Notes under the pieces: model-generated | The model's database searches: none | Told to the model about the DNA's origin: nothing | The model's input: only the letters and a program-made list of their open reading frames with translations | In this document: positions 49,800 through 58,332 of the stretch, one piece after another | How positions within the stretch are numbered: the stretch's first letter is position 1 | Layout of the letters: the number at the start of each line of letters is the position of its first letter | Translations under genes and position numbers: made by a program | Assembly (NCBI GenBank): GCA_029946105.1 | Contig: JAQSDW010000002.1 | Coordinates: forward strand, 1 to 64,000 | DNA: 64,000 nucleotides | Source of the DNA: Reyranella sp. | GTDB lineage: Bacteria > Pseudomonadota > Alphaproteobacteria > Reyranellales > Reyranellaceae | Reading direction: 5' to 3'

Positions 49800-50399
49800 T
49801 CAAATGAGAGCGATATTGAAGTCCGTGAGTATAGCACCCAGTTCGGGGCGGGCTGCGAGCCTTGGTGCGGCTCGCGCTACGAGCTTGCCAACCGCCCGAT
49901 CATAGAGAGCGATATTGCGCTCTTCGTTTAGCCTTGAACTATAAAGTACACCGTCTGGCTTGGTGGAGTGTTCGTAGAACGCCTTTGACCATATCTGCGC
50001 CAACGTTTGGTCCGAAGCTCCTGTCACATCGGTGGGAACGCGTAGAAGCAGATGCCCGTCACCTGTTAAGTCGACCAGGTTCAGGATCTGTCCGAGCTCG
50101 ATGTCAGCACAAAGGTATGAGTCTAATTCTGACTGCGAGAGGGGAAACGGATTGATTGTAGCTACGGCGCGATCACGCAAGACAACCTCCGCGAAGGCTA
50201 CTTTGGCGGACGAGCCCAGATAGACGAGGCCAAATTGCGTTCCCGTAGGATCGCTAAATCGACTTTTCGACCGTCCAAAACCTAACGGATCCGGATGTAC
50301 TGACTTGTAGATTCGTTGCCATAGAGAGCTGGCGGGCTCGGCTGCTAAGGGAAGAGGTTGTCGCGCGAAATCTGCTGGAGGAAGCGCACCGCCACTCAT
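49800..50399 (-). CDS. RES domain protein, probable TA toxin
   Basis: IYKSVHPDPLGFGRSKSRFSDPTGTQFGLVYLGSSAKVAFAEVVLRD. Confidence 0.87.
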   Translation of the reverse strand: MSGGALPPADFARQPLPLAAEPASSLWQRIYKSVHPDPLGFGRSKSRFSDPTGTQFGLVYLGSSAKVAFAEVVLRDRAVATINPFPLSQSELDSYLCADIELGQILNLVDLTGDGHLLLRVPTDVTGASDQTLAQIWSKAFYEHSTKPDGVLYSSRLNEERNIALYDRAVGKLVARAAPRLAARPELGAILTDFNIALI

Positions 50400-50401
50400 G
50401 G

Positions 50402-51139
50402 TTAGGCGAACACGCCGTTCTTCAGATTGCGGGCAGCGTTCTCTACCTCCTCTATGTGTCCTGCCTTCATCTCTTCTAAAGCTGTCTTTCCTGCCAACTC
50501 GTTATGGGGCTGACGAAGGAAGCGAAAAACTGTCCACGGGTCGTTATCAAGGATTGAAAAGATGGCCTTTAACCCAGGCAGCGGCTGACCATTGTCGGTG
50601 ATCTGCCACTTGGGAAAGCGAACGCCGCGAGTAGCGCCTTCAAGTCCTAGAAGGTCGCCAGTCTTTCGTCGCTGGTTTACAGTCTCTGGGGACATACCAA
50701 TCAGGGACGCAAATTCTCTGCCGGGGAGCATCTCTGGGTCCCGCATGAGGCTAGCAACGTATTGCTCACCCCGTTCCTTCGCAGCAGCTAGGGCATCGTT
50801 GGGCACAACGCGGCTTGACGGTAGTGAAGTGATTTTCGGCTCAGCCTTGTTGGGCGCAATCTCAATCTTAAGGTCGATCGACTCACCCAGACGTTCCGCG
50901 CGCAGAGCCGCTTCGGCGATGCGGTCAAGAACTTTGCGCACCAATTTAGGGCGCCCCTCTAACGTCTTCATCGAAGACTTCTTCACTATCAGGCCGGAAA
51001 TCACCACCCGATTCTTTATCTTACCGGAAGTGAAATTCGCCTTGGCCTTGGTGGGCGCGAAGTCTTTCACGACAAGATACCCAAGCGCAGTGGGCTTCTT
51101 CGACGGGGTACTTCCTTTGCCGTGTTTTGCAGTGGACAT
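50402..51139 (-). CDS. probable cognate antitoxin with HTH and MbcA/ParS/Xre-like C-terminus
   Basis: GREFASLIGMSPETVNQRRKTGDLLGL HTH; ILDNDPWTVFRFLRQPHNELAGKTALEEMKAGHIEEV; 2 nt from the RES gene. Confidence 0.72.
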   Translation of the reverse strand: MSTAKHGKGSTPSKKPTALGYLVVKDFAPTKAKANFTSGKIKNRVVISGLIVKKSSMKTLEGRPKLVRKVLDRIAEAALRAERLGESIDLKIEIAPNKAEPKITSLPSSRVVPNDALAAAKERGEQYVASLMRDPEMLPGREFASLIGMSPETVNQRRKTGDLLGLEGATRGVRFPKWQITDNGQPLPGLKAIFSILDNDPWTVFRFLRQPHNELAGKTALEEMKAGHIEEVENAARNLKNGVFA

Positions 51140-56134: not shown

Positions 56135-56770
56135 TCACCAGCGCAGCAGCCGACGTCCCGCAAGGGCACCGAGAGCGATCATGGGCAACGTCGCCAGCAC
56201 GTACCAAGTCATGACGAACAGTGGCGAGTCGTCGAAGCAGTGAAAGGCGTACAGCGCCGCGCCCAACGCCGCCGCCAGAAACCCCGCCGCGGCGCCGGCC
56301 AGGAGGGGCGAGGCGGGAGCGGTCGACCGCAATGCTGCCAACACGGCCACAAGCGGCGCCAATGCCAGCATGGGGATGGCCGACAGGCAGATCAGTGAAT
56401 TGCTGCCGACGAGCCGGCTGCGCCAGGCTTCCACCGGAACCGCCGCCAGTTCGATCGCGACGGCCGCAGTAGCGAGCCCCAGCAGCGGCAACAGCCACCA
56501 GCCGGCATGCCGCGGCGGCACCGGCCGGCTGAGCGCCCGGCAGAGGCCGAAGGCCGAGACGAGGGCCAGCAGTACCAGGACGAGCTTGAGGTCGAAGCGC
56601 CAGGTCGCGAGCGCCGCGGCGAAATCCTTGCGAATACTCAGTTCGACGAAAAATACGACGAGCGACACGGCGCCGCCCGCCGCCAAGGCGAGCGGCAGTC
56701 CCCGCGCAAAGCCCCTGCCCGGGACGGCACGATCGGCGACCAGCGCCGCCACCAGTTCGTCGGTCTTCAT
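56135..56770 (-). CDS. NrsF-like anti-sigma factor (DUF1109)
   Basis: six-TM protein beginning MKTDELVAALVADRA; FHCFDDSPLFVMTWY; adjacent to ECF sigma factor. Confidence 0.87.
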   Translation of the reverse strand: MKTDELVAALVADRAVPGRGFARGLPLALAAGGAVSLVVFFVELSIRKDFAAALATWRFDLKLVLVLLALVSAFGLCRALSRPVPPRHAGWWLLPLLGLATAAVAIELAAVPVEAWRSRLVGSNSLICLSAIPMLALAPLVAVLAALRSTAPASPLLAGAAAGFLAAALGAALYAFHCFDDSPLFVMTWYVLATLPMIALGALAGRRLLRW

Positions 56771-57315
56771 GGGCGCTCCTTGCGGTAGGCGACGGCCAAC
56801 GCCCTGAGCGCGCGATGCAGCGTGACACGCACGGCGCCCTCGGTCATGCTCAGCGTCGAGCCGACATCGCGTGCGCTATGGCCCTCGATCGAGATCGCCT
56901 CGACGATGCGGCGTTGACGCTCGGACAGGCCCGACAGTATCTGCCTTGTGTCCGCCGCCGTACCCGCTTCGCCGGCCTCCGGCGCCGCCAAGGTGCCGGC
57001 ATGGTCGTCGATATCGAGGTGGTCGTGGAACCCACGCCGGCGCAAATGGTCGACCAGCTTGTGACGCGCGATGGCGTGCAGCCACGGCTCGAGGGGCTGC
57101 GCCTCGTCCCAGGTGTCACGCTTCAGATGCATGGCCAGCAACGTTTCCTGCACGATGTCCTCACTGTCCCCGATGCCGCGTCCCGCCCGCGCCAGGCCCC
57201 GCCGCGCGACGCCTCGCAACCAGATCGCGACACGCCCGAGCAACTGGCGATACGCCTCGTCGTCGCCGTTCCTGGCCGCGCGCATCAGCACGGAGAGATC
57301 GTCGGAATTGGACAA
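56767..57315 (-). CDS. ECF sigma factor, SigF-like
   Basis: IGDSEDIVQETLLAMHLKRDTWDEAQPLEPWLHAIARHKLVDHLRR; sigma4 region GHSARDVGSTLSMTEGAVRVTLHRALRAL. Confidence 0.92.
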   Translation of the reverse strand: MSNSDDLSVLMRAARNGDDEAYRQLLGRVAIWLRGVARRGLARAGRGIGDSEDIVQETLLAMHLKRDTWDEAQPLEPWLHAIARHKLVDHLRRRGFHDHLDIDDHAGTLAAPEAGEAGTAADTRQILSGLSERQRRIVEAISIEGHSARDVGSTLSMTEGAVRVTLHRALRALAVAYRKERP

Positions 57316-57336
57316 GGCGTATGGTCTCTTTGTTCA

Positions 57337-57362
57337 TTCGCTGTGACGAGGCGAAACATTAC
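57337..57362 (-). promoter_or_regulatory. sigma-F-like promoter for sigF-nrsF
   Basis: GTAATG-N16-CGAA on minus strand. Confidence 0.65.
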
Positions 57363-57427
57363 AGGCCGATTGCCGATGCACCTAGGGAGTGTCGGCGGGA
57401 GCCCTGCGAAAAATAATTCTTTTCCGC

Positions 57428-57453
57428 GTAACGTCCCGGGCGGGCCTCGCGAA
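57428..57453 (+). promoter_or_regulatory. sigma-F-like promoter for bufferin-like gene
   Basis: GTAACG-N16-CGAA on plus strand. Confidence 0.7.
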
Positions 57454-57498
57454 AGACCTGATACGGGCCTGATGCCCGCACCGTCCAGGAGGATCACC

Positions 57499-57735
57499 AT
57501 GAACAAGCAAGCCATCATCGCTACCGCCGCCTCGCTCTTCGCCGCGGCCACGTTCGCCACTGCCGCGCATGCACAGTCGGTGCATTGCGGCGGTACCAAC
57601 GCCTGCAAGGGCCAGAGCGCTTGCAAGGGCGCCAACAACGCGTGCAAGGGCCAGAATGCCTGCAAGGGCCAAGGCTTCACGCCGGCCAAGGACGCGGCCG
57701 ATTGCACCACCAAGGGCGGCAAGATCGTACCCTGA
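57499..57735 (+). CDS. bufferin-type (BufA2-like) Cys-rich periplasmic peptide precursor
   Basis: 78 aa: signal peptide then HCGGTNACKGQSACKGANNACKGQNACKGQGFTPAKDAADCTTKGGKIVP; AGGAGG SD. Confidence 0.82.
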   Translation: MNKQAIIATAASLFAAATFATAAHAQSVHCGGTNACKGQSACKGANNACKGQNACKGQGFTPAKDAADCTTKGGKIVP

Positions 57736-57855
57736 TCGAGGTCTGAAGGCGGCCGAGGCCAGCGATAGGCCTCGTCCTCGCGCCGTCGAGCCCCTCAAAC
57801 CGCCCCCAATGCGGCCGGGTCTTCGACGGCGCTCTTTCAGTTGCCGGGAGCCGTC

Positions 57856-58332
57856 ATGAACGCCGTCATCACAATCTTCTACGACTGGTCACGCATCGTT
57901 GCGGGCTACTTCGCCTGGGCGGCGCCGCTCGCCGGACGGATCACCGTCGGTTGGGTGTTCCTGTGGAGCGGTTGGCAGAAACTACACATCCTGCCGCGCA
58001 TGATCGAGAATTTCAGGGACTGGGGCATTCCCGCGCCTGAGATCATGGCGCCCTTCGCTTCCGGCGTGGAACTGGTGACCGGCGTCTTGCTGCTGGTGGG
58101 CCTGCTCACGCGCTTCGCGGCGGTACCGATGATGATCGTGATGGCGGTGGCCATCGCATCGGCAAAGGCCAGCCAGATCGATTCACTCGAGACCTTCCTC
58201 GGCTTCGAAGAGGTCGCCTACTTCGTCATGTTCGCCTGGCTCGCCATCGCAGGCCCCGGACCGGTCTCGCTCGATCATGTCGTGTTGAAGACATTCCGAC
58301 CCGGACGCCTGCCGGAAGACTACGGGGCGTAG
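57856..58332 (+). CDS. DoxX family membrane protein
   Basis: GRITVGWVFLWSGWQKL...FASGVELVTGVLLLVGLLTRFAAVPMMIVM. Confidence 0.88.
   Translation: MNAVITIFYDWSRIVAGYFAWAAPLAGRITVGWVFLWSGWQKLHILPRMIENFRDWGIPAPEIMAPFASGVELVTGVLLLVGLLTRFAAVPMMIVMAVAIASAKASQIDSLETFLGFEEVAYFVMFAWLAIAGPGPVSLDHVVLKTFRPGRLPEDYGA

Follow-up and report, generated by a model that had tools for sequence, protein, structure and literature searches.

Organization of the bufA2-doxX locus

We studied a locus of four genes in a 64-kb stretch of Reyranella sp. DNA (the whole stretch analysed, hereafter the window). The genes form two divergent pairs, sigF-nrsF on the minus strand and bufA2-doxX on the plus strand, with a gap of 120 bp between the bufA2 stop codon and doxX. 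The features located were:

56135..56770, minus strand: nrsF, membrane anti-sigma factor (NrsF/DUF1109) with C128 and C178; PF06532 160.7 bits, cut-off 26.8
56767..57315, minus strand: sigF, ECF sigma factor (ECF16/SigF-like) with a TTG start, overlapping nrsF by 4 bp
57337..57362, minus strand: putative sigma-F promoter of sigF, GTAATG-N16-CGAA
57428..57453, plus strand: putative sigma-F promoter of bufA2, GTAACG-N16-CGAA, its 5' end 71 bp before the ATG
57499..57735, plus strand: bufA2, 78-aa bufferin precursor with a Sec-type signal peptide and six Cys; NF050166
57736..57840, plus strand: bufA2/doxX intercistronic stem-loop region (RNA fold), without a long T-run
57856..58332, plus strand: doxX, BufA2-type DoxX membrane protein without Cys; PF07681 76.8 bits

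These coordinates and profile matches agree with the preliminary description, which had placed a 78-aa precursor divergent from sigF/nrsF and about 120 bp before doxX. No DUF692 or DUF2063 gene was found between bufA2 and doxX or close by, and no DUF692 gene within the window; both MNIO genes of the assembly are on other contigs, C79 and C218 (see below). The reported lack of bufB and bufC at the locus therefore stands, and a chance layout is unlikely, since the same four genes occur at 20 further related loci. These were found by joining the coordinates of BufA2, NrsF and MNIO matches in 75 genomes of the same family, of which 53 had BufA2, 42 NrsF and 74 MNIO. The comparison of bufB-less BufA2 neighbourhoods that had been proposed thus yielded a recurring nrsF-sigF/bufA2-doxX cassette without adjacent MNIO gene, at 21 loci in 19 Reyranella genomes with the window's included, and doxX was read in all of them. 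The carriers include Reyranella soli NBRC 108950 (L143), and some of the records are labelled Enhydrobacter.

Elsewhere in the window (49800-51139, minus strand) the gene of a RES-domain toxin (PF08808, 59.8 bits) adjoins that of a protein with a weak, sub-cut-off match to the Xre/MbcA/ParS antitoxin C-terminal domain; by sequence the two are probably a RES-Xre toxin-antitoxin pair.

The BufA2 precursor and DoxX

The precursor matched the NCBIfam BufA2 model NF050166 with 80 bits (cut-off 60), which confirms the bufferin identity first proposed for it. Its N-terminus, judged by sequence and alignment, has the positive start, hydrophobic stretch and A-x-A end of a Sec signal peptide. Six Cys had been ascribed to a repetitive core; this number holds for the whole peptide, but the core string quoted contains just four. 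Four of the six Cys sit in ACKG-type repeats, and all six are aligned with identical spacing in the BufA2 of 21/21 cassettes. The MNIO (BufB) and DUF2063 (BufC) genes of a BufA2 cluster are missing at the window locus and two such pairs lie elsewhere in the genome; these neighbours are not required of a bufferin precursor, and many published precursors do without them (PMC12452194).

The gene doxX follows bufA2 in 20/20 other cassettes, with 68-87% identity, so that DoxX, suggested earlier as the remaining functional partner, proved to be the constant one, kept at all cassettes. The window DoxX scored 73.3 bits with the HvfX model NF050144, just under the cut-off of 80, and is thus not classed as an HvfX equivalog; in a doxX tree it clusters with DoxX from BufA2 operons. 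Plasmids gave no DoxX match and only partial matches to the peptide, and viral contigs held no relative of the window DoxX. The AlphaFold models of DoxX (pLDDT 60) and BufA2 (pLDDT 47) had too little confidence to be used in fold searches.

Strong stem-loops are predicted for the RNA of the 120-bp bufA2-doxX gap (-51 kcal/mol, z -3.35), and a strong hairpin is present in this gap in 21/21 cassettes despite varying sequence (z -2.3 to -4.0 in the seven scored). Because a long T-run is missing, a full terminator is less likely than a structure that protects the mRNA end or terminates transcription in part.

SigF, NrsF and their putative promoters

The window SigF scored 228 bits with NF009165/PRK12512 (cut-off 198) and presented Pfam sigma-70 regions 2 and 4. 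NrsF is a member of its family by Pfam and not an equivalog by NCBIfam, where it reached 86 bits against a cut-off of 300. Its residues C128 and C178 were invariant in 14 aligned homologues and correspond to C131/C181 of Caulobacter crescentus NrsF and to C129/C179 of Brucella AbcS; the two NrsF Cys matter in both Caulobacter and Brucella (PMC3511200, PMC8315932).

The sigma-F promoter consensus of Caulobacter is GTAACC-N16-CGAA (PMC3511200). A motif of this type was found 69-104 bp before bufA2 in 21/21 cassettes, 20 of them exact in GTAAC and CGAA and one with GTAATG, and GTAAYG-N16-CGAA was located before sigF in 20/21. At one locus, a match to the motif over this interval, tolerating one mismatch, is expected by chance at about 0.7%, a value that is not simply multipliable over loci that are related. 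As a sequence motif, then, both divergent genes present the GTAAC-N16-CGAA type of SigF/NrsF (ECF16) promoters, and its conservation over the cassettes supports the sigma-F/NrsF control suggested in the preliminary description. The motif preceded 0/9 precursor genes of five bufA2-bufBC operons that lack a sigF neighbour. In a second class of loci, where bufA2-bufB-bufC lies near another sigF/nrsF pair (L109, L120, L121), GTAACC-N16-CGAA was present. Note that the BufA2 of these three bufBC-linked loci has lost the fourth Cys, with QSPAKGQ for NACKGQ, and retains five. The sigma-F pattern was also searched genome-wide, and no regulon was deduced because its 19 matches were no more frequent than the 32 of a reversed control.

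Distribution and origin of the cassette

In some relatives the sigF-nrsF pair is divergent to bufA1-bufB-bufC(-doxX) in place of bufA2-doxX. Among 17 genomes with such a bufA1 locus (nine of the loci read base by base and the remainder placed by coordinates), 15 lacked any BufA2 and none had the cassette (hypergeometric P 0.003, kinship ignored). In a tree of sigF and nrsF the genes of cassettes and bufA1 loci were intermixed, a single cassette clade not being rejected; in the doxX tree, cassette and bufA1-locus genes were deeply split and the former grouped with doxX of BufA2 operons, including those of Gammaproteobacteria. Since the regulatory genes intermix with those of bufA1 loci while doxX groups with BufA2 operons, the cassette looks like a mosaic that combines the regulator of a bufA1 locus with BufA2-type effectors. 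Related states were seen as well: bufA2-doxX pairs that resemble the window's but lack both regulatory genes and the promoter motif (L132, L134), and bufA2 alone (L130, L131, L137 and others).

Outside the family, a class sample of 241 genomes included 12 genomes of other families with BufA2 (14 matches at 13 loci); bufBC was adjacent at 12 of these loci and sigF/nrsF stood beside bufA2 at 0/13. The cassette was also absent from the further non-Reyranella loci compared.

BufA2 is strongly expanded in the genus Reyranella (G034, G057 and other genomes): a single genome can have up to nine matches, and tandem arrays of them often precede one bufBC pair. At one locus (L131, 4000-5234) a lone bufA2 lies directly 3' of the gene for an exported cytochrome c-like protein (CMACH motif); doxX, sigF and bufBC are all missing within 5 kb.

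Maturation enzymes elsewhere in the genome

The assembly searched (5.62 Mb in 242 contigs, 98% complete) holds two MNIO genes. One is in contig C79, in the order bufA2, a short second precursor, bufB and bufC, and the BufA2 encoded there has six Cys; the other is in contig C218, in the order bufA1 (DUF2282), bufB and bufC. Both BufB proteins exceeded the NCBIfam bufferin maturase cut-off of 310 bits (380 and 347 bits), and both BufC proteins are DUF2063 by Pfam. The second precursor of C79, between bufA2 and bufB (L003, 6574-6897, minus strand), is shorter, has fewer Cys and scores 22 bits to BufA2. The orphan reading of the preliminary description is thus true at the locus and does not extend to the genome, given the bufA2-bufB-bufC and bufA1-bufB-bufC operons on other contigs. 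That description had regarded a bufBC pair elsewhere, serving this peptide in trans, as the finding that would speak against an orphan; such a pair exists, and we infer its service to the window peptide from what follows. With these operons in the genome, modification in trans leads among the three options considered at the outset (no modification, modification in trans, or a different enzyme).

The co-occurrence of enzyme and precursor points the same way. BufA2-type bufB, recognised by score, was present in 45/53 genomes with BufA2 and in 0/22 without it (Fisher 1e-12, kinship ignored), and in 15/19 cassette genomes. Against maturation by such an enzyme, the four cassette-carrying assemblies in which it was absent (G025, G030, G042 and G048) had as best bufB matches sequences of 43-44% identity in the first three and a partial one of 33% in the last; about 1.25 such absences are predicted from assembly gaps, against the 4 observed (P = 0.04 for at least 4). 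When bufferins are made, the signal peptide reportedly serves as leader (Junger 2026, as cited in PMC13419390), and that of the window precursor is like those of bufBC-linked BufA2 (z 6-14) and unlike those of BufA1 (z 1.5-3.9). Excess conservation of the signal peptide was tried as proof of a leader role and discarded: its value was 0.65 and that of the TolB control 0.66 in the same genomes, and because the control is equally conserved, this conservation permits recognition without proving it. The BufB residue after the catalytic Asp was likewise not diagnostic as a marker of the substrate site, being Ala here and Asp in L124, with Asp in the published Cys-Lys consensus.

A model for the cassette and its alternatives

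From the sequence comparisons, we propose with a probability of roughly 60% that the locus is a stress-inducible bufferin cassette whose peptide matures in trans through the BufB and BufC encoded on contig C79. NrsF would keep SigF held at the membrane until a signal, presumably a metal or an oxidant, acts on its two conserved Cys; the SigF so freed would act at both divergent GTAAYG-N16-CGAA promoters and so transcribe bufA2-doxX as well as the sigF-nrsF operon. The C79 enzymes would recognise the BufA2 precursor by its signal-peptide leader, and the matured peptide, once exported, would bind copper or similar soft metals. DoxX may act as a dedicated membrane accessory, and the hairpin 3' of bufA2 probably holds the output of peptide above that of DoxX. 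In the five linked bufBC operons with no sigF alongside, the sigma-F motif is missing, so that enzyme and substrate would be regulated separately, a point against the model. With the maturation enzymes encoded elsewhere in the genome, several peptides, each under its own control, may share a single enzyme pair.

Bufferin Cys are modified to 5-thiooxazole, with a mass loss of about 4 Da per Cys and, as reported for bufferins, absorbance at 305 nm. That same separate regulation would also suit a peptide that is never modified in this way; its six thiols would scavenge metal or oxidant in the periplasm, and DoxX would manage its redox state. The adjacency of bufBC at 0/21 cassettes and the four cassette genomes without BufA2-type bufB are consistent with it, and Antoine et al. 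2025 (PMC12452194) allow for orphan precursors without modification. We nevertheless hold it to be rather unlikely, for the ACKG-type core and leader are the same as in enzyme-linked BufA2, BufA2 and BufA2-type bufB co-occur tightly, and an MNIO gene was present in all 864 complete Buf2 genomes of that survey. Equally doubtful is its corollary that a cell would hold one family in two chemical forms, modified from the bufBC operon and, from the sigma-F cassette, as an unmodified thiol scavenger with DoxX.

Modification in trans could also be the work of the BufA1-type BufB/BufC, or of any pair present. At least one MNIO gene exists in 19/19 cassette genomes (in G048 a partial match only), and the full-length MNIOs of G025, G030 and G042 are not BufA2-type; against this, MNIO subgroups follow the precursor families and BufA1 signal peptides do not resemble the window's, which makes such service quite improbable. 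The gammaproteobacterial order bufA2-bufB-bufC-doxX (L204, also L203) means that a deletion of bufBC is possible, and the cassette might then descend from a bufA-bufB-bufC-doxX operon that has shed its enzymes, lost its function and is decaying; this is strongly disfavoured, as open frames, Cys, promoters and doxX are kept over 19 diverged genomes.

Comparison with known systems

The cassette is a natural and recurrent case of a RiPP precursor parted from its maturation enzymes, in which stress control would extend to the precursor and not to the enzymes. Two points can be tested on it directly: whether a single MNIO pair modifies several precursors in trans, and what DoxX contributes to bufferins, since precursor and DoxX stay together where the enzymes do not.

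Among the closest known systems is the sigma-F regulon of Caulobacter (CC3254-CC3257, i.e., DUF2282-DUF692-DUF2063-DoxX, and CC2907-CC2905; Kohler et al. 2012, PMC3511200), which shares the SigF-NrsF pair, promoters of the GTAACC-N16-CGAA type, control of a bufferin precursor and DoxX, and the two NrsF Cys. In Caulobacter, however, bufB and bufC lie inside the sigma-F operons and the precursors are annotated DUF2282, whereas the Reyranella cassette has BufA2 and leaves the enzymes outside. The Brucella BcrS-AbcS system (ECF16, PMC8315932) has the same regulator class, Cys pair and promoter type but directs a response to HOCl through a Met-rich protein and MsrPQ-like genes, with no bufferin mentioned in the available text. 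Haemophilus HvfA-HvfB-HvfC-HvfX (oxazolin/captophorin class) likewise combines an exported Cys peptide with a DoxX-like partner; it differs in its EGKCG-type precursor and in having the enzymes within the operon, and the window DoxX falls just below the HvfX cut-off.

With the Buf2 clusters surveyed by Antoine et al. 2025 (PMC12452194) the cassette has in common the six-Cys precursor, DoxX as core partner and the occurrence of MNIO-less precursors, which make up sizeable shares of both Buf1 and Buf2 precursors. Bufferins, their enzymes, DoxX, sigma-F control and MNIO-less precursors are therefore all already described, and the system is less under-described than the preliminary description had supposed. 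That survey found sigma/NrsF genes in Buf1 and not in Buf2 clusters, whereas in the 21 cassettes they adjoin a Buf2 precursor; what is new is thus an arrangement of known parts, namely a Buf2 precursor beside sigF-nrsF and the recurrent split of precursor and DoxX from the enzymes.
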